In this document: positions 17,201 through 51,500 of the stretch, one piece after another
Layout of the letters: every line of letters starts with the position of its first letter
How positions within the stretch are numbered: position 1 is the first letter of the stretch
Assembly (NCBI GenBank): GCA_963669155.1
Contig: OZ022587.1
Location: 3,113,179 to 3,177,178, forward strand
DNA from: Arbacia lixula
Lineage: Eukaryota; Echinodermata; Echinoidea; Arbacioida; Arbaciidae
Direction: 5' to 3'
Length of the DNA: 64,000 nucleotides
The notes under the pieces: model-generated
Seen by the model: the letters and a program-made list of their open reading frames with translations, nothing else
Told to the model about the DNA's origin: nothing
The model's database searches: none
Program-made: the position numbers and the translations under genes

Positions 17201-20200
17201 AAACCAAAGGGGTATGGCTCAATTGTACCCTGTAAGGAATCTGCTCTTTATTTATTGTCGTATTTGTCCATAGAGCAGCTTACGTGGGAGTCGCACTGCT
17301 ATGTATATGAGTGGAGAAAAGTCAGCCAGCATATATGCAGGCTCATTTAAAGGGCATATACTGTACAAATCCTCAAAATGTTCGGGCCAAACATTTTGAG
17401 GATTTGTGATTTAATCACTCATTACTCCAAATGTAGATCATTTGAGGGCAAATAACTTTCAGCAAGCTTCTAAAATAGACAATACATGAATTTAAGACCA
17501 TTGGCAAGAAGATTGCGAACAATTACACTTTGAAGGCTTTTTTGCCTTCCCAGTACAGTATATGCCCTTTAAAAATGGGTTAATATCTACCAGAGACAGG
17601 AAAAAGAACTCACATTACAGGTGCAGTTGGTGCAGGCGTCTGCCTGTGGGGAGAAGACCTCTCCATTTAGCAGCAGCCTGGAGTCAAAGACGCAGGCATC
17701 TAGCTTACAGGAGGGACAGCAGGCACCTTGCTCTCTACGCTGTCTGATGGGTGGGCAGCCGAGGTTTGGACACTCCTGGGCAGTGCATAGTAGCTCTCCC
17801 GCCTGTAGGGGTAAGGAGGGTAGCATCAAAGGGTGAGTGAAGGGGAGAGATTAAGAGTTTGGTGGTTGGTGGTGGTTGTGGTGGTGGTAAAGAGCTCTCT
17901 CCGCTGTCTGATGGGTGGGCAGCCAAGGTTTGGACACTCCTGAGCAGTGCACAGTAGCTCTCCCCCCTGTAGGGATAAGGAGGGTAGCATCAAAGGGTGA
18001 GTGAAGGGGAGAGATTAAGAGTTTGGTGGTTGTGGTGGTGTTAAAGAGCTCTCGACACTGTCTGATGGGTGGGCAGCCAAGGTCTGGACACTCCTGAGCA
18101 GTGCACAGTAGCTCTCCCGCCTGTAGGGGTAAGGAGGGTAGCATCAAAGGGTGAGTGAAGGGGAGAGATTAAGAGTTTGGTGGTTGTGGTGGTGGTAAAG
18201 AGCTCTCTCCGCTGTCTGAAAGGTGGGCAGCCCAGGTCTGGGCACTCCTGAGCAGTGCACAGTAGCTCTCCTGCCTTTAGGGGTAAGATGGATAGCATCA
18301 AAGGATGAATGAGGATGGATAAAATGGAAGTGGGGGGGGGGGTGGTGGGGTGGGGTTGGGGGTGGGTGTGTGGGTGGGGGTGGGGGTGGTGGTGGGGGGG
18401 TGGTGGTGGGGGTGGGGGTGGTGGTGGTGGTGGTGGTGGTGGGGGTGTTGGGGGGTGGTGGGGGTGGGGTTGGGCTGGTGGTGGTGGCGGCGGCGGCAGC
18501 GGCGTCGGCGGCAGTGGTGATAGTAGTAGTGATAGAGTCTAGTTTTTCTTTTAATTGAATAACCATTCCCTAAATTTACCTCAAAATAAGTTTTTATACT
18601 AATAAGCCATTTCATAATTGCAATTGTGCATGAGCAGATTATTGCTTTTAGTAAATGACCTCAGGTCATTTTCCAAACTCACAGAGTAAAATGGGAATTC
18701 ATTAGATAGTCGACCACATTTCAATCTATTATCATGCAAATATGGCAACAGCTATTCAGCTCTAAGAAGGTAGTGAAAGAACATTCCACCATGTGCATCT
18801 GCTTCTATTGTTGTTCTGGGCAAACTCTAAAATGTCTTTACATCCATCATCCAACACAACTTCATGAAAAACAATCCCAGTGAGTAGTCTAGTCGTATTG
18901 ATTCACTGCACAATTGTCCGACAATGGTGTAATTACGAAATGGTCTATTGATAAGCACATCATAATTCTGAGAGACTATGTAAGAGGATTCACCTTCACT
19001 ACGAAGCAAACATTATGTAAATATGAGTTTAACATTTTGAGGATGAAGATACTGATGAGGATGACAATAATGATGATGATGAGAAGGATTACCATGACAA
19101 CAGCACAACTTACCATACAGAGACAAGAAGAGCATTCATCTGGTTCATACTGGGAGCCACTGTGTAGGATGATGCCATTCACCTCACATGATATGTCTAC
19201 GCTCATGTGGTCTATATATCACAAAGCAAAAACACAACAGCAAGAAATGTCATTCATCAATACAAATGATATTATCCTTCAGTTATAATTTATACACATA
19301 TATTTGGGACCATTCCTTCAATTTTTGGCAAAGTTAGGGGAGCAGGATCATTTGATCATGGATGAATTCTACCCTAACTGTCAAAAGAGTTTATAAGATA
19401 ATATGTAGTTCAAAGTTTTCAGTAAATCTTTCAACTTTGGGGAAATCATTAACCTTTGATCATGGATAGAGTTGACCTTAGTTCTAAAGAGTTCATTAGT
19501 TTCACTAGATAACATCCAGGTTCAAAGTTTGAAGTAAATCTTCCCAAAGTATCTTGAGATACAATAAATTAGGGGGAATAATGAAAAAAATGATAGATGG
19601 ATGGACAAACATACCATATTTCTCTGGCTGATATAATATGGGCCTGATAGAAAGCCAGTAAACTGTAATGTATCTTGGATAATTGTGTCTTCAAACTTTC
19701 ATAGTGAAAGCCACATTGTCTTATACTGTACTATAACAGGTAACAGTTACTATAATGAGAGGAATAGCATGTATGCCGAAAAGCTATCCCACAATTCCAT
19801 GCACATTTTCTGGATTTTTAATCAGATTTTGAGTAATCTAAGTAACAAGGATTAATTTGGTTTTAAGTCTGAAAACCAGCCGCCGTGGTAACATGACTCA
19901 CCAGCACAGTTAGGGCAGCAGGCTCCGTCCTTGTAGACGACGTTCTCTGGAGGGCAGTCTGGTGTGGGGCACGTGATTGGCTGACAGTCCAGCCAATCAT
20001 GGAGGCATACACACTCCATGCAGTCCTGGTTGCTAGGGCTGAATATCTGCCCGTGTGTGTAATTGGTGTTGTCATAGAAACAGCCTGAGGAAGGATGAGG
20101 TGATGTCATTAATTCGAGTCTACCTCTGTACTCATCAGCTCTTCAATCACAGCTTTTAAGGACTACACTCATTTTAAAAGAATACTCTACTTTCAAATCT

Positions 20201-23200: not shown

Positions 23201-26200
23201 AAATGATGAAAATGAAGCACTACAGATGCAGATGGAAATTCTTTATTTTATGGGCAACAACAGGATTGGAAAACCTTCCCATGAACCTCCTTGATTATCC
23301 TGATACACCAATCAGAAACGACCCTGTACACGCACTTTATCAATACATAAGTCTCCTCTCTGTTCAGAAGACATATTTTTTTTCTAAAATAACATTCTGC
23401 ATAATCATGTTTACTAGAGACCTTGTTTCTTTAGTTGAGTTTTCATGACTGTAGCATGATCAAATTTCTAACTGGACCTGATCAGATTTTGTAACATTTG
23501 CCGAGGAAAATTAATAATCCCTTGGACTAGTGTCTATTAACAGTATTTGATAACATCACAACTTGAGGTACCAGCATAGGGTTAATTATTTATGTTCCAT
23601 TGAAGCAATCTTGCACTGGTAATACACACCACTCCCATAGGGCAGTATGGAGCCTGGCAGAGAGGGAGTGGAGACTGTTCTGGCGTATGTTACCATAATA
23701 ACCTTCACTGTGTCAGCTTCAAAACACTGGAATGATTTGCCACTTACAATTAGACAGTCTCCATAACTATCAATTTTCAGAAAGGCATTAAAAACCCATC
23801 TCTTTTGTAGTACGTAGTTTCAGATTATGTAATTCTATTTAGTTCACTGTAAGCGCTTTGGGCCTTATGGGAAAAGTGCTATATAAGTAATAAGTAATAA
23901 TAATAATAATAATAAGTAATAATTGGACCTACCAGACAGGTGCACTCCTGACATGGGTCAGAGGATGACATCCAAGACTCTCCACTTCGGTACTCCTCTC
24001 CATCCTGGCCTCGGCAGAAAGCATCTAGCACAACCAAAAACATGGACAATGATGAAGGAACTACACTTGTTGCTAGTTGACCACAGAATTCCATTTAAAG
24101 GGCATATACTGTACTGGGAAGGCATGAAAGCCTTCAAAATGTAATTATTAGCAATCTTCTTGCCAATGGTCTTAAATTCATGTATTGACCATTTCAGAAG
24201 CTTGCTGAAAGTTATTTGACCTCAGATGATCCACATATGGAGTAATTAATGATTAATGATTTGTGATTTCATCACTCATTACTCCAAATGTAGATCATAT
24301 GAGGGCAAATAACTTTCAGCAAGCTTCTAAAATAGACAATACATGAATTTAAGACCATTGGCAAGAAGATTGTCAACAATTACATTTTGAAGGCTTTTTT
24401 GCCTTCCTAGTACAGTATAGGCCCTTTAGAATATGAATGCTGATTGGCAAAGCTCTGAAAACTCACTTGTTCATGTACGAATGTACACTGCAACATTTAT
24501 GAGCTCTTGCAGCTCAGCAGAAATGTATCGGTATAGTTCTTCCACTTTACAAATGAATACGTTACATCATCATATAATAAAGAACTTTCCTGTAATGTTA
24601 AGGATTATGCTATACCTGCAGAAATGTGTCCATATAGTTATTGCACTTTCAAATGAATATGTTACATCATCATATAATAAAGAACTTTCCTGTAATGTTA
24701 AGGGTTATGCTCTACCTGCAGAAATGTGTCCATATAGTTATTGCACTTTCAAATGAATATGTTACATCATCATATAATAAAGAACTTTCCTGTAATGTTA
24801 AGGGTTATGCTCTACCTGCACATGAGGGACAGCATTCTCCAGCCACGGTGGTAGTGACTGGACACTTGAGCATCGGACACTGTTCCCTCTCTGTACATTG
24901 CACTGACCCAGCCTGAGGTTTCAGAAAAGACATATATGATTGATTTGTTCTCTGCTTGATTTCCAATACATCAAATGAGAATAAAACAGTAAATACATGT
25001 GTCAAAACGAATGAAGCTGATATTCAAAAGCATTAATAGAACATAATGGAATGAAATATAACAAGCTATTCATAATAAACAGAAGTTTGATGGAATGAAA
25101 GCCCAACGATATCATATAATACTTTGTATAAAATTAAGGAAAACATCAACAAATTGGTCACTGTATGTGTCGACAAACAACCAGTTACGATCAATATTCA
25201 CCCTTTATCTATCAATTGCATGAACACGTGCTGTGCAGTGGCTGGGAAGGCCAAAATATTTTTAAGGCAACAAAGGCTGGTCTTGAAATCTCATAGTATG
25301 TTGGTCAAGAGTATGTATTTATGTTGCTGTCAACTGATCAAATCTTGACTCTTGTTCATGCTTTCCCTCAGGCATTTATTGAATCAAAGGAATTATCCTT
25401 AAGAAAGAGTCAAGGTATTACACTCACATCACAGTGGCATGTCTTGCAGGAGTCGAGAGCTGGATTGAAGAATTCACCATCTGGGATGATCTGTCCCAAA
25501 AAGTAACAATCTGCAGGTGCAAGAATGAAAGAGATATAAACAGGAGAAGGGAAATATTACCACGTCATATTTGTAAATGTGCTTATATTGATATTGCTTT
25601 TATGAACATATACACTGTAATTACAATTCTCCCTATCGCTTATAGCTCTCCGAATCTGACCGTGTGTGGCGCTCTAATTTGTTTTACCTTTAATTCTTGG
25701 GATATGAACTTCCGGTCCACGAACATTCGGCAATCCCGTACAATAAGGGACCAGGGTATCCAACTAATTTCATGAATATTAACCCTAAACCTAACCCTGA
25801 CCTTAACACTAACCCTAAACCTTATTCTAAACCTAACCCTGACCCTAACCACAACCCTACACAAAATTTTCACTGCTTAATTCATAAAAAAAGTGATTTC
25901 TTGGTCACTTTCTGCCGACAACCAGCTCTTACCGGAAGTATACGACCAAGAGCAATCGATCAGATATCGGTATCGTGAGGTGATATTGCTTGATATCGGC
26001 TATATGCGATAGGGAGAATTGTGATAGAAAGTGACTCGATCTCTCTTAGTCTGCTCTGCTTCTCATTTCACTGTTTTTTGTTTTTTTTCTCACACTTCTT
26101 GCCCTCTCTCTTGCCCTAACAATACAATCTTTTCTTCTGCTCTATTCTCTTCTCTCTCCTCTTCTTTCTCTCTCCTCTTCTTTCTCTCTCCTCGTATACT

Positions 26201-29200: not shown

Positions 29201-32200
29201 TTGTTCAAGAGAAACAAAAAATGTGATCTCTCTGGGCAGGTGTTCACTAAAAGCAGGTTTTGCTGTACAACATTTCATGTATCCTCAATGTGTGTGCTGA
29301 TTATTTACCTTCACAGGTCTGGCAGCAATCGCCCTCCATAGGTCTAGAGCAGGTGATTTCAGGACACGTTATGTTGCTGCACTTCACATTGCCATCCTGC
29401 AGGGGAGGGAAGGGGGGAAGAGAGGTGGAGAGAGGTGGCATTTGTACTAATATGCAAGAAAGACTTATTGAAAATATGCCCTAACTTCAACAGAGGCAAA
29501 TGGGCGATAAAGAGCAAGCTAGAGTACTTAGAAAGTAGGCACACAGGTGTAATGTGCGAGGTATTCTCCTCTTAATGCACTGAACACATGCCAAAAAATT
29601 AAGGTGCACACTTCTTCTCATGTACAGAGCTCAAAATAATGGAAGGTAAGGAATTTGTAGCAATGGTAACAGGAGCCGTTTTTCACCATCACATGTGCCA
29701 TACTACATTTAAATTCAACGATTGTATCATTCCTTTAGCAGAGAAGTGATAAATAGATAAAAAAAAAAATGGATGGATGGATGGATGGATGGATGGATGG
29801 ATGGATGGATAGATGGATAGATGGATAGATGGATAGATGGATAGATGGATAGATGGATAGATGGATAGATAGATAGATAGATAGATAGATAGAAAGATAG
29901 TGCTTAGCCTTACCTCACAGATGCATGTGGCACAGGTCTGATCGCTAGGAGAGAAGTAGAGGTGATTCCTGATGATGTTCCCATCATATAGACAATCTGA
30001 GAAACAGTTAAAACATTTAAGTCTTTTATTCATTTCTTCATCATATTTTAGTCAAACAATATCCTCCCTGGAACATAATGATTTCATGATACCACACATG
30101 ACAGATGAATCTCTTCCAAACACAACATTTTTTAACAGCAATTTCATGTTTGTTAGAGACAATAGAAAGGAATTAGTGTTTAACATTCCAACACCCACTC
30201 TTGTTGTCCACATTTGCAGGTATGACAATGTATTGATTTCAAAACATGCAATATATAAAATGGTAGAAACATGACTAGAATGCAGTCCTCCCGCAGAAGT
30301 ATAGTGCACATGTATGAAACTGATTCTCAAAATGTAAGAAAAGTGCAGAAAATCAGAGATGCTGGAAACATTCTTCAATATCAAAACATATTAAATAGAA
30401 AACTGAATGTGTTTATCTACTAAAATGATTAAAGAAATACTTACCTGTGCATTCGTGGCAACATTCTGTCTGGTGAGGGACAGGGTGATTGCACTGAACA
30501 TCACAGATCTCTCTCATGCACCTGACCTGACTGTCCAGACAGCTGCAATGGTCACAGGGGTCAAAGGGTGATGTCCAGTTGGACCCGTGGTTGAACTCAA
30601 TCCCCTGGTATGTGCACTGCTGGAACTCTGTCAAGTGTAAATGATCAGATACCATTTATTATTTTCTAATTGCTATACATTTTTATTAATATACTGTATT
30701 TCATAAATTCATATATGTAATGCATTTTGATTGTCATTCTTTATTAATTTAAAATGACACAATTTTCATATGTTGATTTTGTTGTTCAATCATTTAATTC
30801 TATTTCTTATTCTATCTCAGGCAATGATATTATTTATTGATCATCTTTTTACAATTCAATATAATAAAATACCTAATCGTATTCATTTTATTACCTTTAC
30901 TTTCTATGCATTTTATTGCATTTTATGAATACAATAGCTACACAATAATAAAAAATCATTGTGATCACCACCATCCCGATCATCAGTCTCAGCCTCACAT
31001 CAACATCAACATCACCATCAGTCCCACCTCCCCCCCCCCCCCCCCCCCTCCACATCCTTGAGTCCTACTCACGAGGTCTAGGGCAGTCTGTGCAGGTGGT
31101 GACACCCATATCACAGGAGCATTCCGTGCAGCCATCCACTGTCCATGTAGTACCTGATGCATACAGATGGTTCTCATACACACAACCTACAAACAAAGGA
31201 AAGATCAAACAGAAAATATAATATACAAATACAGTGTCTAGAGTTCGTATGCGCATGAGGTAATTGTACTTTTTCAACTGCAATGTAGTTTACTACATTC
31301 TTTCTCTATAGTTTATCAAGTTATAGATAACAAAAAAGAAACACTCATTTAGGATCATCATTAAGATATCTCCTATATCATCAAGTATCTAAACCTATTT
31401 TGAATTTACCTTCTGGGGAAATGTATGATATAAGCCAAATAAAAATACCATAGTCTTGCAGATGTGTCGAAAAACAGTGTTATTGCAACTTATTATGATA
31501 GCATATTCAATTTACTTCAGTCACTTTACTCTAGAATACACATAAGTAGGTATATAATATGATAATAGTAGACAGCAGGATGTACCTGATGGTCCAACAC
31601 ATGTGTTCCCATCAGCCTCCAGGATGAAGCCCTCGAAACAAGCACACAGGTACGACCCGATGGTGTTGAGACACCGCTGCTCACAGTTATGCTCCCCTTC
31701 ACACTCATCAATATCTGCACAGAAGCAAGAGTTAAGAAGTTATTATATGCACATGTATTTACTAGTGGTTACTCCTAGGTTTGTTTGAGGTTTGTCTCAC
31801 TAGCCACCACCAATAGATTCAAAGTGTATTCCACTCATTGAACCTTAATTATCATAAATTTGAGTACACTATGAAATTGGTCTATTAAGAGAAGTGAAAC
31901 CTCTGGAACTTATCATTGATACTATTTTACCCCTCAGTACCAAGCAATAATAGATCCATGACAATTACAACACAACTCATTGCCCATGGGACTAATCGGA
32001 TTAATGGCAAGGGGGACTCCTTACCAACGCATCTTTTGTCTGGTCCATGCTGGTAGCCTGGGGCACAGGAGCAGTAGAAACTCCCTATGGTGTTGAAGCA
32101 CTCATGTCTGCAGATATTGGAGTTGACTTCACACTCATTGATATCTGAAGAAGGAGAAGAAGAAGAATAGTGAGGGAGATAATAATAATGATGATGCTTA

Positions 32201-35200
32201 GGATGATTAAGAGGAGGAAGGGGATGGTATAATAGTAATAATAATGATAATGAGGAGGTGGAGGAGGAATTCATATCTCGCATACACAAATTATGCACAA
32301 GATTATCATGAAGTTTCCCTTAAAATCGAAACTAAAAAGGTCTTGCTCTGCTATTCCTAGCTGTTTTGTGGAAAATTAGACATTAAAAGCCTAGTTACAA
32401 TTGATATGTTGACTAAATAACCATATGGATGTGAAAATGAGATATCTTGGGCTTACCTTCATTGCAGGCCTTGCCAGTGAAGCCCACAGGACAGCGGCAA
32501 TAACCCAGCACACACACTGCATTGTTCTCACATACAGGGTCACAGGTCATCTCTGACAAAGAAACAAGATATAAAAAGGCATATACATTAGCGCATCACA
32601 TGCGAGAAGAGAGAGGCATGGGCTTGACAAAATTTTGACAAAAGAATGCAAGTGAAAATCACTCAGGTTTGAAATGTTTATGTTTATGTTTATGCATTTA
32701 GATTGGTCCCATCACTCCCTATTTACTACTCCCTACAGAAATATTAATCATGCTGTGAGATCTTTAAAGACAGCCCGTCCCTTTTTCAGATCACCACAAA
32801 ACCATCCAAACATTGGCAAAACATAAGAGAAGTGTTAGCAAGCTGTATATTCATAATTTGAAACTGATACGTAGTGTAAAATTCAAACAATGCACGTAAA
32901 CAACGTCTGATTGATAGTCTTTACCTCAGGCTCTTAGCAGTTTGTGTTGAAATATCTGTTTTATTGATTAATCTGTATATTAAATTATAAAATGCATTAT
33001 GAAAAAAAAATTGTTCTATAGAAGGAATCATTTCCAAAGTTTAGTAATTTACTCATAAAATTAGGAATACACACATGCATAATAACCACATAGATACTGT
33101 AACAAAGACTAATACTTTTTTCGTAGTACGAAAAAAGTCGGTTTGAAATTTAACAGCTGAAATTTTTACATACACAGAAAGCTTCAACATGCTATATTCT
33201 TAGAAATGGTCTTGAATCACACTTTCTTCAATTTACAATCGTGATAGACGATTTCAATTTTTAAGCTTGCAAAAGGTACGGACAATCTTTAATATTACAT
33301 GCTGTGTTGCTTTGGTGCCAATACAAATGACAGGCACATTTTACATTTACATTTACAAGTGAAATCCCATGTGTTACTTGATTCCTTTTAACACAGTATA
33401 TAATCGCAATATTGATCTATAAGGATCCAAATACATCAGGTCAGTTTGCTCGAACAGATATTTTAAAGCCTGCAAAAGCGATACTCTTGCTTAATTTCCG
33501 TGGGTGCATGACAAATTGTTCTCAATGGGCTTTATGTGTATTGTTGCTACCACAGTGCACACATAGCACAGTAAGTTCATAAAATGGGGCCTTACCTTCA
33601 GCACAGGTGGGCCCTCGGTAGCCTAAAGGACACAGACAGATGCCCTGGATGCAGGTGGCCCCGTTCTCACAGCCTGGTTCACAGGACTCGAACTGCAGCG
33701 TGAAATCTGAAATGTCAGATCAGAAATTAGACATGACCAAGATGCTTCAGCAAATGGAGACATGTCTGTGACTCCTTCATGGATAAGTTTTAACTTTAGC
33801 AAGGTTTTAGGACAAGCACACAGAATTGATGGTTCGTTAAAAATGCTGACGATTTACACATGGACCGTTTGCGGTATATGATTCAAACTATAGTCACTGC
33901 ATTAAGCATGATTATGATCCTTGTTAGGTTGTTTGGTACATGTTCAGAAAATCAAACCATAAAATCATCTTATGTTATGACAATTGTTGTAATACCAATG
34001 GTAATACTTTTAAAAAGAACTTACAGTAGCATTTTATTCAACTAAATATAGAAAACTTACTAGAAAATTCACAGAATTCTCCAAAGTAGTCTTCAGCGCA
34101 GACACAAACACCATTCTGACAATGGCCTCCGTTGAGACAGGGGTGAGGGCAGGCGATAGCTAGGAACAAGAATAATTCAGACAATAGTCACTTATTTCAA
34201 AGTATAAAATGAATTATATGCTCTTTTATAGTATCCTTTTGCACTGTCAACACAGCACTCCATTAAAGCAAGGATTCTGAAAATGGCTATTGACTACAGC
34301 TCATACACTAGTAATTGATTGCACATTGAAAACAACATTTCTGCACTCTTGCATACCATCATGTGTCACTGCCAAACTGCACTCCATTAAGGCAAGGGTT
34401 CTGAAAGACTGCATCTGACCACAAGAAATAATGTAACAGTAATCTATTGCACAGTAATCTATCGCATAGTAATCTATTGCATAGTAATCTATTGCATAGT
34501 AATCAATTTCATAGTAATCTATTGCACAGTATAGAGATATCTGCACCATTGGATAACATAATTTTACACTGTTCATACTGCACACCATTAGGGCAAGGAT
34601 TGTGAAAGATGCCATCTAACCACAACAGATCATACAATAGTAACACAGTATGAAGAGTGATACAATCTCTAACGTATGAGATTACTTATGCAGTATGAAT
34701 AGTGATAAAGTCTCAAACACATGAGATTACTTACTCAGTATGAACAGTGAAACAATCTCAAACGCATGAGATTACTTACGCAGTATGAACAGTGACACAA
34801 TCTCAAACGCATGAGATTACTTACGCAGTATGAACAGTGATATAATCTCAAACGCATGAGATTACTTACGCAGTATGAACAGTCATACAATCTCAAACGC
34901 ATGAGATTACTTACGCAGTATGAACAGTCATACAATCTCAAACGTATGAGATTACTTACGCAGTATGAACAGTGATATAATCTCAAACGCATGAGATTAC
35001 TTACGCAGTATGAACAGTGATACAATCTCAAACGCATGAGATTACTTACGCAGTATGAACAGTGATACAAGTGATACAATCTCAAACGCATGAGATTACT
35101 TACGCAGTATGAACAGTCATACAATCTCAAACGCATGAGATTACTTACGCAGTATGAACAGTCATACAATCTCAAACGCATGAGATTACTTACGCAGTAT

Positions 35201-38200
35201 GAACAGTCATACAATCTCAAACGCATGAGATTACTTACGCAGTATGAACAGTGATACAATCTCAAACGCATGAGATTACTTACGCAGTATGAACAGTGAT
35301 ATAATCTCAAACGCATGAGATTACTTACGCAGTATGAACAGTCATACAATCTCAAACGCATGAGATTACTTACGCAGTATGAACAGTGATACAATCTCAA
35401 ACGCATGAGATTACTTACGCAGTATGAACAGTGATACAATCTCAAACGCATGAGATTACTTACGCAGTATGAACAGTGATACAATCTCAAACGCATGAGA
35501 TTACTTACGCAGTATGCACAGTGATACAATCTCAAACGCATGAGATTACTTACGCAGTATGAACAGTGATACAATCTCAAACGCATGAGATTACTTACGC
35601 AGTATGAACAGTGATACAATCTCAAACGAATGAGATTACTTACGCAGTATGAACAGTGATACAATCTCAAACGCATGAGATTACTTACGCAGTATGAACA
35701 GTCATACAATCTCAAACGCATGAGATTACTTACGCAGTATGAACAGTCATACAATCTCAAACGCATGAGATTACTTACGCAGTATGCACAGCGATACAAT
35801 CTCAAACGCATGAGATTACTTACGCAGTATGAACAGTCATACAATCTCAAACGCATGAGATTACTTACGCAGTATGAACAGTGATACAATCTCAAACGCA
35901 TGAGATTACTTACGCAGTATGAACAGTGATACAATCTCAAACGCACGAGATTACTTACGCAGTATGAACAGTGATACAAACGCAAAGGCAGGAGATTACT
36001 TACGCAGTATGAACAGTGATACAATCTCAAACGCATGAGATTGCTTACGCATTATGAACAGTGGTACAATCTCAAACGCATGAGATTACTTACGCAGTAT
36101 GAACAGTGATACAATCTCAAACGCATGAGATTACTTACGCAGTATGAACAGTGATACAATCTCAAACGCATGAGATTACTTACGCAGTATGAACAGTGAT
36201 ACAATCTCAAACGCATGAGATTACTTACGCAGTATGAACAGTGATACAATCTCAAACGCATGAGATTACTTACGCAGTATGAACAGTGATACAATCTCAA
36301 ACGCATGAGATTACTTACGCAGTATGAACAGTGATACAAGTGATACAATCTCAAACGCATGAGATTACTTACGCAGTATGAAGAGGGCTACAGTCTTGGA
36401 GAGAGGGCCAGCAATGCAGGTGTAGTTGCCTATGTCTTGAACCTGGAAGTCGTTGATGATCAGTTCGATCTTCTGCCTCTCAATCACACTCACATGTTTG
36501 TGGGAGCTTCCACCTGATATAAGCAAAGAGATAAATGTCAAATGAGAATAGATTTAGAGTGTTAATTAAACCTCTGATCCTCATGATATTATTTCAAGGG
36601 GCATATCTGCAGTCTTGTAGTTTCTAAATCAAGCAATGTAATATACCTCAGGAATATTATATTATCATGATTCCTAAGCCCATCACTTTATTCATTTTAT
36701 ACAATTATGAAATCAATGTATATAACCTGAAACTCAATATGGACTTTTAATTACATGAACAAGATAATGAAGAATGATATTTCAATAAAACAAAGCAGAG
36801 CCAAGGCACTGATGTAGAATGTGTACTTCTGGAATTTAACCCTAAAATAGTGGTTCCTCTTTGCTATGGCAATGGACTGACCTTCTTCTAGAGTGTTGAT
36901 GAGAGTGCCGTTCTGGCTGAACCATTGGGGTACCTCGTCCACATCCCTGGCCTTGACCTCACACACGATGGCGGTATCCTCCCCGAGGGCTAGCACCTGA
37001 CCCTGGAATGGGCTCACAATGATCTGCGGCTGAGCTCCAACTGAGACAACAAAGCAAGAACATATTTTGATTCATACATATTCATCAATATATATATAAT
37101 CTTGATACACCTGTTCCGTTGGATAACAGGCATGACATAGAATTAACCATCCTAGCAAAATGACCTTATGTGGATAAATAAATAGCATTCAATAGTTCTT
37201 TAATTAAAATAAATTTGCACAATAAATGGAGATTCATGCCATGTTGTTACTTGTTGAAACCAAGTTAACCAAACTATGTGTATGGATGGCTCTGAGCTGG
37301 GCCATGATACGGCGCCATCTGTTGGTAGATTTTCAACAATCAATGGATCTTACATGGGCTGTAATCATTTTCTAATATTGTTCTTATACCAATAATACAT
37401 AACTTTGAGGAGATTCTTTCACATAACAAATTGGTAGATACTATGCCTGATTAATCCTGACAGTACCAAGCCATGGCCATGCAGAAAATGCCTAATAATT
37501 TATCACACTTTCCATGCATACATGGTACTGAGAGGGTTTAGAAATGGAAGCCAAATAACTAAAAGAAAAAAAATATACATAAATTGCTCTTCAACTCTTT
37601 ACATGCCACATGTGACTTTTTCACAAGTAATACATGCAAATACCATACTGCCCTACTCTGACAAAAGGAAATAAGTGACAAATCACTAAAAATCTGGGTT
37701 ATTGGTATTCTTAAATTGTACCCAGCATTCTCTACATACGGCCAAAATCTGGACAAGAAATATTAATATTGCTGCAAGATATTCAATCTAACATGATGTG
37801 GTGTTGATGTCAATGCAAGTGACAGACACATTTTGCTCATTTACAAGATAAGTCTCTTTTGTTAGTTTCTTCCTTTTGTCAGATTAGGGCAGCATAGCTT
37901 GGCAGCTTAAATGGCACAGACAGGGTTAAGATCATCAAAACACAAAAATCATCAAGACACTGAAGTATGTCTTATCAATCATGCCATTTAATAATGTTCC
38001 AGTAGGTGGTCTGTAATGTCCATGATCTAATAACCCACACGTCATGAAGTGGCCGTTAGCCTAATCACATTAGTTTTCTTCCTGACTGCGTGCCCCCTGT
38101 ACCACATTGCCCAACAGTCATGGCTTTCATCGGTGATAGGAGCAGGCAAGGGACATGAGTCTCAATGTGACACGGTAAAATTCAATTAGAGGAATTCCCC

Positions 38201-48565: not shown

Positions 48566-51500
48566 GGGAGAGAGGGGGAGAGAGGGGGAGAGAGAGAAAG
48601 AGAGTGACAGGGAGGGAGAAAGAGAAAAATGTAGAGAAAGAGGAGGGGGTAGATTGGTAAAAGCAAAGTATATGAGAGGACATATAGATGGAAATGAGAC
48701 AAGAGGGATAAACAGAGAAAGAGAGAGTTACTTACAGAGAGAGCACTAGAGAGGTAGTGGCAGGGCAGAAGAGAAAGAGAAAGAGAAATGGAGTGAGAGA
48801 AAGGAAGGGAGAAAGACAGCAAGAGAGAGAAAATGGGTAGGGAGGGGAGAGAAGGGCAAAAACACACACACACACACCAAAAACAGAGAGAGTACATGTG
48901 TGAACATGTGCTCAGCACTTACTTGTAAATGAACACACACACACACACACACTCATCCATAGACATGACTTAACTCTACACAACAAAGATAAGACCAAGC
49001 CAATCAGCATCCAGGATATACACATCTGCAGCTCATCAACCAATCAGGTAGTATGCATGGCAAAATCTGTGTCCCCTTTGGACCAATCAGGAAGTAGGAG
49101 CTCAACCAAAGTAGGCCAGTCAATTGAAGATGACAGCCTTTGTGCTTAAATGTACAAGCATTGTTACTGTGCCATATTACATGTGTATATAACACTACAT
49201 CATACAAAAATTAAATAATTTGCTTTAATCATGGCTTCATGTACATGTCTAAAACTACATTCTGCCCATCTCTCATATCCCCTTTTCTCCCTTAACCTAG
49301 AAAAACCTTTAAAAACACTTCAATGATTTACCAAACCTGAGTAAAGAAGACATGCCCCCCCCCCCCACACACACACACACCACCATCACCACTACCCATT
49401 TAATGTTTTCCTGTCATAATAGTACAAAATCACTAACGCATCACATCCCCTTCTTTCCATAACCCCACCCCCTCCCTCTTCCCCTACCCAACCCATCAGA
49501 TCCCTGCCCATACTTTCCCTATCTCCCATAATAACCCCAACCCCCACCTACACCCATGCCTCACCCAAACCCCATCCCCGGTGCCTGAACTCACCCAGCC
49601 TGAGCTGACAGAAGACGCCTCCAATCCCTGCAGGGCAGATGCACAGACCTCGGTCACACGTCCCTCCATGCAGGCAGCCCGGCTCACATGTATCTGGATA
49701 GAGGAGAGAAAGTGAGAGAGAGGAACAATTTACAAGTGGAGACCAGCGTTAACACAGAGGAACAATTTATAATTGCATTGTAGACCAGCATTGGTAGATT
49801 TGTACCAGGACAGAGGGGAGAGGGAGAGAAAGAAAAACAATTTATAAGTGGAGACCAGTGTTAGCAGAGAGGAATGATTTATAATTGCATTGTAGACCAG
49901 CATTGGTAGATTTGTATCAGGACAGAGGGGAGAGGGAGAGAAAGAAAAACAATTTATAAGTGGAGACCAGCGTTAGCAAAGAGGAACAATTTATAATTGC
50001 ATTGTAGACCAGCATTGGTAGATTTGTACCAGGACAGAGGGGAGAGGGAGAGAAAGAAAAACAATTTATAAGTGGAGACCAGTGTTAGCAGAGAGGAATG
50101 ATTTATAATTGCATTGTAGACCAGCATTGGTAGATTTGTATCAGGACAGAGGGGAGAGGGAGAGAAAGAAAAACAATTTATAAGTGGAGACCAGCGTTAG
50201 CAAAGAGGAACAATTTATAATTGCATTGTAGACCAGCATTGGTAGATTTGTAACAGGACAAAGGAGAGAGGGAGAGAAAGGAAAACAATTTATAAGTGGA
50301 GACCAGCGTTAGCAGAGAGGAATGATTTATGATTGCAGGGGAGACCGATCCACTGAATTAAATACAAGAGATCAGACAGGACAAGGAAAACTTTTCATGG
50401 CATATTTTTAGACATGGGATGCACTATACAAACCAGGATGTAGGAACTTCACATCTCCATAATTATTACTCCACGGAGGATACATACAACAGCGAGTCAA
50501 CAACAGTTAGTTGGAGGAGCTGTGTCATCATGATACGAGGAATATTTGCCAAGCAAAATCAATGAGATGGATGGAAGACTGAGAAAGAACAACAGCTGAA
50601 AATGGACTTCTAATTCACACCTTTCTGTGCCAGATAAACTGCTGCTCAATGGGATTGATGTGAATTTAAGGAGACATCAAACACATATGCCATATGTCGG
50701 CTTATTTTATCATGCATAGTACCAGGTCCAGTTATCTGCACAAATGGTCAGGATAATAAATGAAACTTTCTTCAAGCGCTGTCGTTGCTGAGATAATGAC
50801 AATCATCTATCGGCTAGCTGCATGTTTATCCAACGGATACAACAGAGAGATTAGAATGGCAGAAAACACTCAACGGCATTCAATACTCATGTGTGAAGGA
50901 GACAGAGAGATTGAAAGATGAATCATGAAAAAATGTGTCGCTTTGTCTTTCTCTTTGTCGTCCTTGATACATCAAAAAAGACAATTAATTAACCCTCATG
51001 TAAACAAAAGAAAGATGGACTATGAGGTCAACTTAAAAATACTTAGCTCTGATGTCAGAGGTGCATGCCTCTGTGTCACACTAGTTGGCCAAAGAACAAA
51101 AGACAATTAGTTAATTCCTTAGTGTTCGACAATGACCTGCTACATATGACTTTACTGGTACAAAAATACAAGAATGGTCTTAAAGACTTTATTTGTACCA
51201 TACAGTGTTGCTTCATTGGGCTTGTGTGTTTTACAGTTGCAAAAATGCATTACAGATGCATAAAGACTTAACTCCATCTATACCAGACAAACTACTGCTC
51301 TGCTGGACTTATTGACTGTGGTTACGACTGGTTCAAGAATGTTGCGGTTGCAGTTACAGAATTAAGGCATGCAAGGAGTGTCTATGGTAAGTTTTCATCA
51401 TCAGCTGATCATGAATGACCCCTGCAACCTTTGTCTTCCAGATAAAATGCTGCATTATGGGATTTGTGCGTACTTGTGTACATTACCGGTGACAAACTAC

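Follow-up and report, generated by a model that had tools for sequence, protein, structure and literature searches.

A 45-bp minisatellite with 35 intact decoy 5' splice sites behind an Ig exon of Arbacia lixula, probably an extreme member of the mirage class

Background

Minisatellite-like tandem duplications of exon-intron boundaries have been described in the globin genes of amphioxus, where they were called "mirages" after the case of Adh3 (Ebner et al. 2010, PMC3087553). The Adh3 units measure 10-72 bp and many of the repeats carry splice signals, and the Adh3 data, together with reverse transcription PCR of the globins, suggested that amphioxus mirages are regularly spliced (PMC3087553). 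Mirages display length instability, and the edges of a cluster escape homogenisation (PMC3087553). They have also been reported in PGBD5, with troponin C cited (Pavelitz et al. 2013, PMC3902484). We describe an array of this kind in a gene of the sea urchin Arbacia lixula, within a stretch of 64,000 nucleotides (assembly GCA_963669155.1, contig OZ022587.1, positions 3,113,179 to 3,177,178), hereafter the window. A 45-bp unit, copied from the junction between an Ig exon and its intron, is repeated 38 times and brings 35 intact copies of the 5' splice site directly behind the true one.

The structural features of mirages found here are a tandem array of minisatellite size, a unit that spans the boundary, splice signals within the copies, and inner units that are homogenised where the cluster edges are not. 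The amphioxus arrays (Adh3, BflGb6/BflGb9, troponin C and PGBD5) likewise hold the boundary inside the unit, on the donor or the acceptor side, with AG/GT signals in many copies and with inner units homogenised while the edges are not. The A. lixula array differs in its host, an echinoderm whereas the reported hosts are cephalochordates, in its copy number (38, where the BflGb6 haplotypes have 3 and 6 and the PGBD5 assemblies 2-7), and in that GTAAGT is intact in 36 of its 38 copies. The echinoderm host is borne out by contig C590, a mitochondrial sequence of 15,740 bp: its COX1 yields the conserved residues asparagine at AAA and isoleucine at ATA when translated with the echinoderm code but not with the invertebrate one, which excludes amphioxus as host. 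The tRNA-Lys has the anticodon CTT, and frames recognisable as ND1, ND2 and COX1 share one strand, an order of genes that suits sea urchins and sea cucumbers better than starfish. A search for the GFP family gave no match, a weak result because its control matched nothing either. A limited search of the open-licence literature, only partly aimed at sea urchins, found no report of an echinoderm mirage. Judged from its sequence, the array is probably an extreme and neutral member of the mirages, in a phylum for which we found no earlier report, and as far as these limited searches show it extends boundary-spanning minisatellites with splice signals beyond the cephalochordates.

Two other systems are related by geometry. 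In human duplicated genes, cryptic splice sites can be activated by variable internal tandem repeats located at exon-intron boundaries (PMC2812944); these too are minisatellites at boundaries, and the repeats there alter transcripts. Rogers-type intron gain by tandem duplication of AGGT (PMC3087553) shares the local duplication that includes splice signals. It does not account for the 45-bp array, which lies within the Ig-EGF intron at an Ig-domain boundary with no new intron or exon evident, and each of whose units brings a stop in the frame of the exon.

Results

A ladder of donors directly behind the Ig exon

The features that make up the locus, in positions of the window, are as follows.

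34646..36396, minus strand: 45-bp minisatellite with 38 full units and one partial unit and 35 intact decoy donors (Tandem Repeats Finder, TRF, and a listing of the units).
36373..36513, minus strand: exon of 141 nt for the second half of an Ig domain, with phase 1 at either end (open frame).
36367..36372, minus strand: true 5' splice site GTAAGT, in array unit 1; its use keeps the frame and the phase to the next exon.
34655..34699, minus strand: most distal full unit (unit 38), donor ATAAGT (unit listing, extension test).
34061..34159, minus strand: next exon, encoding an EGF-like domain, acceptor TTCCTAG (open frame and domain match).

TRF placed the array at 34646-36396, with a period of 45, 38.5 copies and 94% matches, so that it overlaps the last ~24 nt of the Ig exon. 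On the gene strand 36 of the 38 full units are 45 bp long, and the other two (units 1 and 29) are 54 bp long and share the same 9-bp insertion; a degenerate partial copy at 34654 lies beyond the full units. GTAAGT is intact in 36 units, namely at the true donor at 36372 and at 35 decoys, the exceptions being unit 8 (GTAAGC) and unit 38 (ATAAGT). A preliminary description of this stretch had counted about 38 tandem copies of a 5' splice site behind the real one, noted a hairpin with 7-bp arms (AATCTCA/TGAGATT) in the unit, and predicted an immediate stop upon decoy use or failure to splice. The count is borne out, the hairpin arms are present by direct reading of the unit, and decoy use or intron retention appends C|GT AAG TAA, that is Arg-Lys-stop, in the exon frame.

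The unit was found nowhere else. All 33 occurrences of the 16-mer TTCATACTGCGTAAGT in the window, the exon's own copy counted, lie within the array, and a 40-nt stretch over the junction has 37 further copies with 3-7 mismatches each. A 37-mer of the unit, searched at up to 3 mismatches, gave 34 matches in the 607-Mb genome, 34/34 of them in the array, and a DNA search of the genome with the unit returned at least 10 places, the 10 listed all lying inside the array. A dispersed satellite or transposon family was rejected, as these searches of the 607-Mb genome found no related copies of the unit outside the array. A 31-mer scanned against viral contigs gave no match, and Rfam gave no family at the gathering threshold.

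Origin from the junction and homogenisation

Each unit corresponds to ~24 nt of exon end followed by ~21 nt of intron start. The exon (AAGACTGTAGCCCTCTTCATACTGC) and the unit (GAGATTGTATCACTGTTCATACTGC) are identical at 20 of 25 bases and, in the frame of the exon, the unit reads EIVSLFIL and the exon KTVALFIL. The preliminary description had recognised the last 10 exon bases in the unit; these are present, and the homology was understated, since it runs to ~24-25 nt. The leftward extension of this homology in the most distal copy was equalled in 8 of 50,000 shuffles and at 26 of 121,800 other positions in the window (p about 2e-4); with the unit consensus the same extension was weaker (0.00085 of shuffles and 250 of 121,800 positions, p about 1e-3 to 2e-3). 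Immediately before its final TTCATACTG, unit 38 shares a C with the exon (CTCTTC), a position at which the unit consensus reads G (CTGTTC). The exon homology and the preserved Ig reading show that the array unit is a copy of the exon-intron junction itself and not a foreign satellite.

The inner units are homogenised. Units 1-37 show 21 distinct base variants, 18 of them occurring once; units 2-6 equal the consensus, the distal units 37 and 38 differ from it at 5 and 4 bases, and the inner unit 9 also at 4. On its exon side, unit 1 departs from the array unit at 5 of 25 bases; on its intron side it is the consensus plus the 9-bp insertion of unit 29, an insertion for which recurrent 9-bp slippage could also account. 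The exon side of unit 1 is an edge that escaped homogenisation, in agreement with the report on amphioxus BflGb6.

Strength, folding and conservation of the donors

Predicted U1 pairing was -7.3 kcal/mol both for the true donor and for unit 2. The decoys match the true donor in this score: 34 of the 35 intact decoys have its bases over the 11 scored positions and over the nine-base donor, and unit 37 scores -7.2 kcal/mol (five array copies were scored besides the true donor, and the remaining decoys follow from identity). The earlier wording of a near-consensus U1 target fits positions +1 to +6 but not -3 to -1, which are TGC, and the predicted pairing is mid-range. Among 14 other donors scored in the gene, with one further donor (Ig first half) dropped as misplaced, 7 are stronger and 7 weaker, and 2.3% of 3,631 other GT sites on the gene strand score as well as the true donor.

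Hairpins that hide the decoys were considered and rejected, the predicted accessibility being 0.040 for the true donor and 0.005-0.158 for the decoys, 15 of 35 of which are more accessible. Since the decoys match the true donor in predicted pairing and folding, position probably decides the choice of donor if the gene is correctly spliced, the first donor being the one joined to the exon. Selection on GTAAGT was also unsupported. Only 1 of the 21 distinct variants in units 1-37 falls in the motif, where 2.8 were expected (P 0.21), or 2 of 24 when unit 38 is included, and variants are therefore not significantly depleted in the donor motif.

Junction duplication and donor ladders across the genome

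The rate at which junctions are duplicated elsewhere was estimated from 119 junctions at 60 loci (30 p450 and 30 EGF_CA, among 101 and 150 listed matches, respectively). A copy within 500 nt was found for 4 of these 119, compared with 132 of 3,313 random flank 24-mers (4.0%); exon ends were picked by a simple score, two loci have stops in the match, and some of the junctions are not real, at least two p450 loci (L020, L021) appearing intronless. The random 24-mers were filtered for complexity and the 119 junctions were not; five junction matches pass the filter, of which the fifth (L070) was dropped, as it lies 1408 nt away (>500 nt) and resembles a neighbouring exon. Of the 38 junctions modelled in the window, 3 have a copy, compared with 316 of 5,311 random 24-mers (5.9%), a count that includes the 45-bp array where the random background excludes it, and that is biased upward by two of four hand-added exons already known to carry arrays. 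The 38 junctions belong to 19 exons, modelled partly by hand with further exons of the gene left out; the exon for the first half of the Ig domain has edges that are one or two bases off. On these small numbers, the rates suggest that junctions are neither sought nor spared by tandem duplication. An attraction of arrays to junctions is unsupported, the junction rates being near background.

The four sampled matches comprise an acceptor (L056) and three donors (L059, L064 and L072). The donors are single local duplicates, lying 114, 280 and 166 nt away, respectively, of an exon end with its donor region, and the GT is lost only in the copy of L072. Positions 1051-1515 of L056 form an acceptor mirage in another gene, where an EGF_CA exon at 1501 is preceded by about five copies of a C-rich tract joined to an exon start resembling ATATAAATAAATG; the AG of these copies appears as CTCAG, CTGAG or CTAAG or is lost, and 3 copies pass the 24-mer test. 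TRF arrays with a period of at least 12 lie near the edge of the exon match at 2 of the 60 loci, L052 (a low-complexity repeat) and L056.

Counted over both strands of the genome, three GTAAGT motifs with gaps of 20-50 nt occur 915 times and the reversed control pattern 9,853 times. The comparison shows no excess of GTAAGT ladders, with the reservation that this control is weak and probably swollen by simple repeats. Clustered ladders were found among the matches listed, all of which lie on contig C1, for example at C1:14669990-14672051 with ~39-40-bp spacing. This ladder is longer than the 45-bp array. Copy number is what stays unusual about the 45-bp array in the genome.

Discussion

A junction-born array that is probably close to neutral

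From its sequence we think it likely that the array is a mirage-type minisatellite that was born from the junction, expanded and was tolerated, and that it is close to neutral. One tandem duplication copied the exon-intron junction (~24 nt of exon and ~21 nt of intron). The 45-bp unit then multiplied to ~38 copies, we presume through slippage or unequal exchange, and the units, including the intron half of unit 1, became homogenised. Splicing would normally take the first donor, because it is joined to the full exon and is transcribed first, and products of decoy use, if any, would be cleared by nonsense-mediated decay. With the first donor used and decoy products decayed, the array would be tolerated and close to neutral.

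A neutral by-product is favoured by the lack of significant GTAAGT conservation, the equal U1 pairing and folding of the donors, the background rate of junction duplication and the other GTAAGT ladders. The preliminary description had offered four roles, a tuner of splicing efficiency, a U1 sink, a source of truncated isoforms and a neutral expansion, and held that the sequence could not decide among them. The anatomy beneath these roles (ladder, stop and hairpin) stands, conservation of GTAAGT within the array is not significant, and the tests favour neutral expansion over the other three. The sequence also says more than was allowed, in that the unit was evidently born from the junction and has a published amphioxus counterpart; the reservation holds for donor use, which is inferred. 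The junction counts suggest that no special cause is needed, and that frequent tandem duplication plus an intact copy joined to the exon suffice. The array offers a natural experiment in how the spliceosome chooses among dozens of equal 5' splice sites.

Three points weigh against near-neutrality. One 22-nt stretch of the unit holds only 5 of 24 variants (scan p 0.07, the scans ranging 0.07-0.49), and with 21-24 variants weak conservation of the donor would go unseen. The 38 copies also far exceed the other window arrays with a period of at least 30, the next of which has 5.8, and for this reason chance is a less comfortable explanation for the length of the array than for its place.

Alternative explanations

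Regulated unproductive splicing would have the decoys compete with the true donor, so that the share of Arg-Lys-stop products, which either decay or yield Ig-terminated protein, tunes output through copy number. That the true donor and 34 of 35 intact decoys are the same at every scored base, with a predicted -7.3 kcal/mol, that a stop follows in frame directly after any decoy, and that 15 decoys are predicted to be more accessible than the true donor all speak for such a mechanism. We nonetheless consider it unlikely, as GTAAGT is not significantly conserved above the rest of the unit, comparable ladders occur elsewhere in the genome, and amphioxus mirages with splice signals seemed normally spliced (PMC3087553). 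The same low probability attaches to a copy-number dial, by which donor copies capture splicing and end the protein at Arg-Lys-stop, and length variation among individuals sets the output of this EGF-Ig-VWC gene.

An array that helps the true donor, with U1 on the downstream copies aiding definition of the Ig exon or guarding the 2.2-kb intron from premature polyadenylation, is quite unlikely. U1 bound downstream of a natural donor can favour exon inclusion (PMC5933811), and giving test pre-mRNAs a consensus 5' splice site at their 3' end led to a larger share of complexes with two U1 small nuclear ribonucleoproteins and raised splicing for one substrate (PMC8724738). A parallel is PAH intron 11, where a U1-binding site downstream of the natural donor promotes exon definition; unlike the present locus, it is reported as a single regulatory element with mutational evidence and no array (PMC5933811). 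The true donor here is of ordinary predicted strength, and the need for help is not apparent. Protection from intronic polyadenylation was rejected, because a scan of the intron found no AATAAA or ATTAAA to shield against.

The reverse polarity, in which the boundary received an unrelated satellite that supplied the exon with its final bases and its donor, seems to us very improbable. It would explain why the array consensus is matched exactly by the intron side of unit 1 and by the exon over its last 10 bases, but the unit encodes a string resembling an Ig G strand in the exon frame, the phase-1 junction suits the next exon, and at up to 3 mismatches of the 37-mer the unit is absent elsewhere in the genome. 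An assembly artefact that inflates the copy number is hardly credible: near-identical units are difficult to assemble, yet these bear scattered distinct variants and two 54-bp forms, and 1.75 kb is within the reach of long reads (the assembly has 590 contigs for 607 Mb).

The host gene and the Ig-EGF intron

The host gene lies on the minus strand, and within the window it codes for EGF-like, Ig, EGF_CA, VWC, VWD and TIL domains, as assigned from 10 hand-picked proteins, 8 of which had Pfam matches. The joined translation of the Ig and EGF exons matches Ig_3 (E 1.5e-7), and the end of the second Ig exon should be the expected last strand of the Ig fold. When a paralogous exon or second haplotype was sought for the second Ig exon, good cover came from the window's own match alone, the others being mostly EGF.

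The Ig-EGF intron is 2,213 nt long, of which the array takes up ~1.73 kb. It also holds a separate 15-bp array (AGTAATCTATTGCAT x 6.3) at 34438-34531. At 34567-34581 on the plus strand, within one of three degenerate ~80-bp direct repeats (34242-34640), lies an inverted exact 15-mer of the 45-bp unit (CACTGTTCATACTGC). Taken as an inverted origin of the unit, this 15-mer gave a local alignment score of 17, which was reached by 8 of 300 shuffles.

Other boundary arrays in the same gene

Three further arrays adjoin exon boundaries of the gene.

24517..24820, minus strand: donor array, 100 bp x 3 (TRF), which repeats TGCAG|GTAGAG (third copy GTATAG) of a VWC exon ending at 24816.
17730..18312, minus strand: acceptor array, 154 bp x 3.7 (TRF), with the first ~70 nt of a VWC exon (start 17802) and its acceptor.
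49689..50337, minus strand: array of 112 bp x 5.8 (TRF and sequence), reaching ~5 nt into an EGF exon starting at 49693.

The units at 24517-24820 are bounded by CAG|GTAGAG or a variant, that is by AG|GT, which is the geometry of intron gain by tandem duplication. Units bounded by AG|GT are also the geometry of recursive splice sites. At 17730-18312 the acceptor and the start of the VWC exon are present in four copies, the three upstream acceptor copies being two CTACAG and one CTAAAG; since 154 bp is no multiple of 3, splicing to an upstream copy would put the exon out of frame. In the units at 49689-50337 the pyrimidine tract is preserved, but CTG stands in place of the CAG of the true site, so that they are not decoys; no 24-mer copy of this junction was found at up to 30% mismatch. 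Finally, an 8-bp microsatellite (GATGGATA x 15) at 29772-29893 adjoins the donor at 29913, starting from ~20 nt inside the intron.

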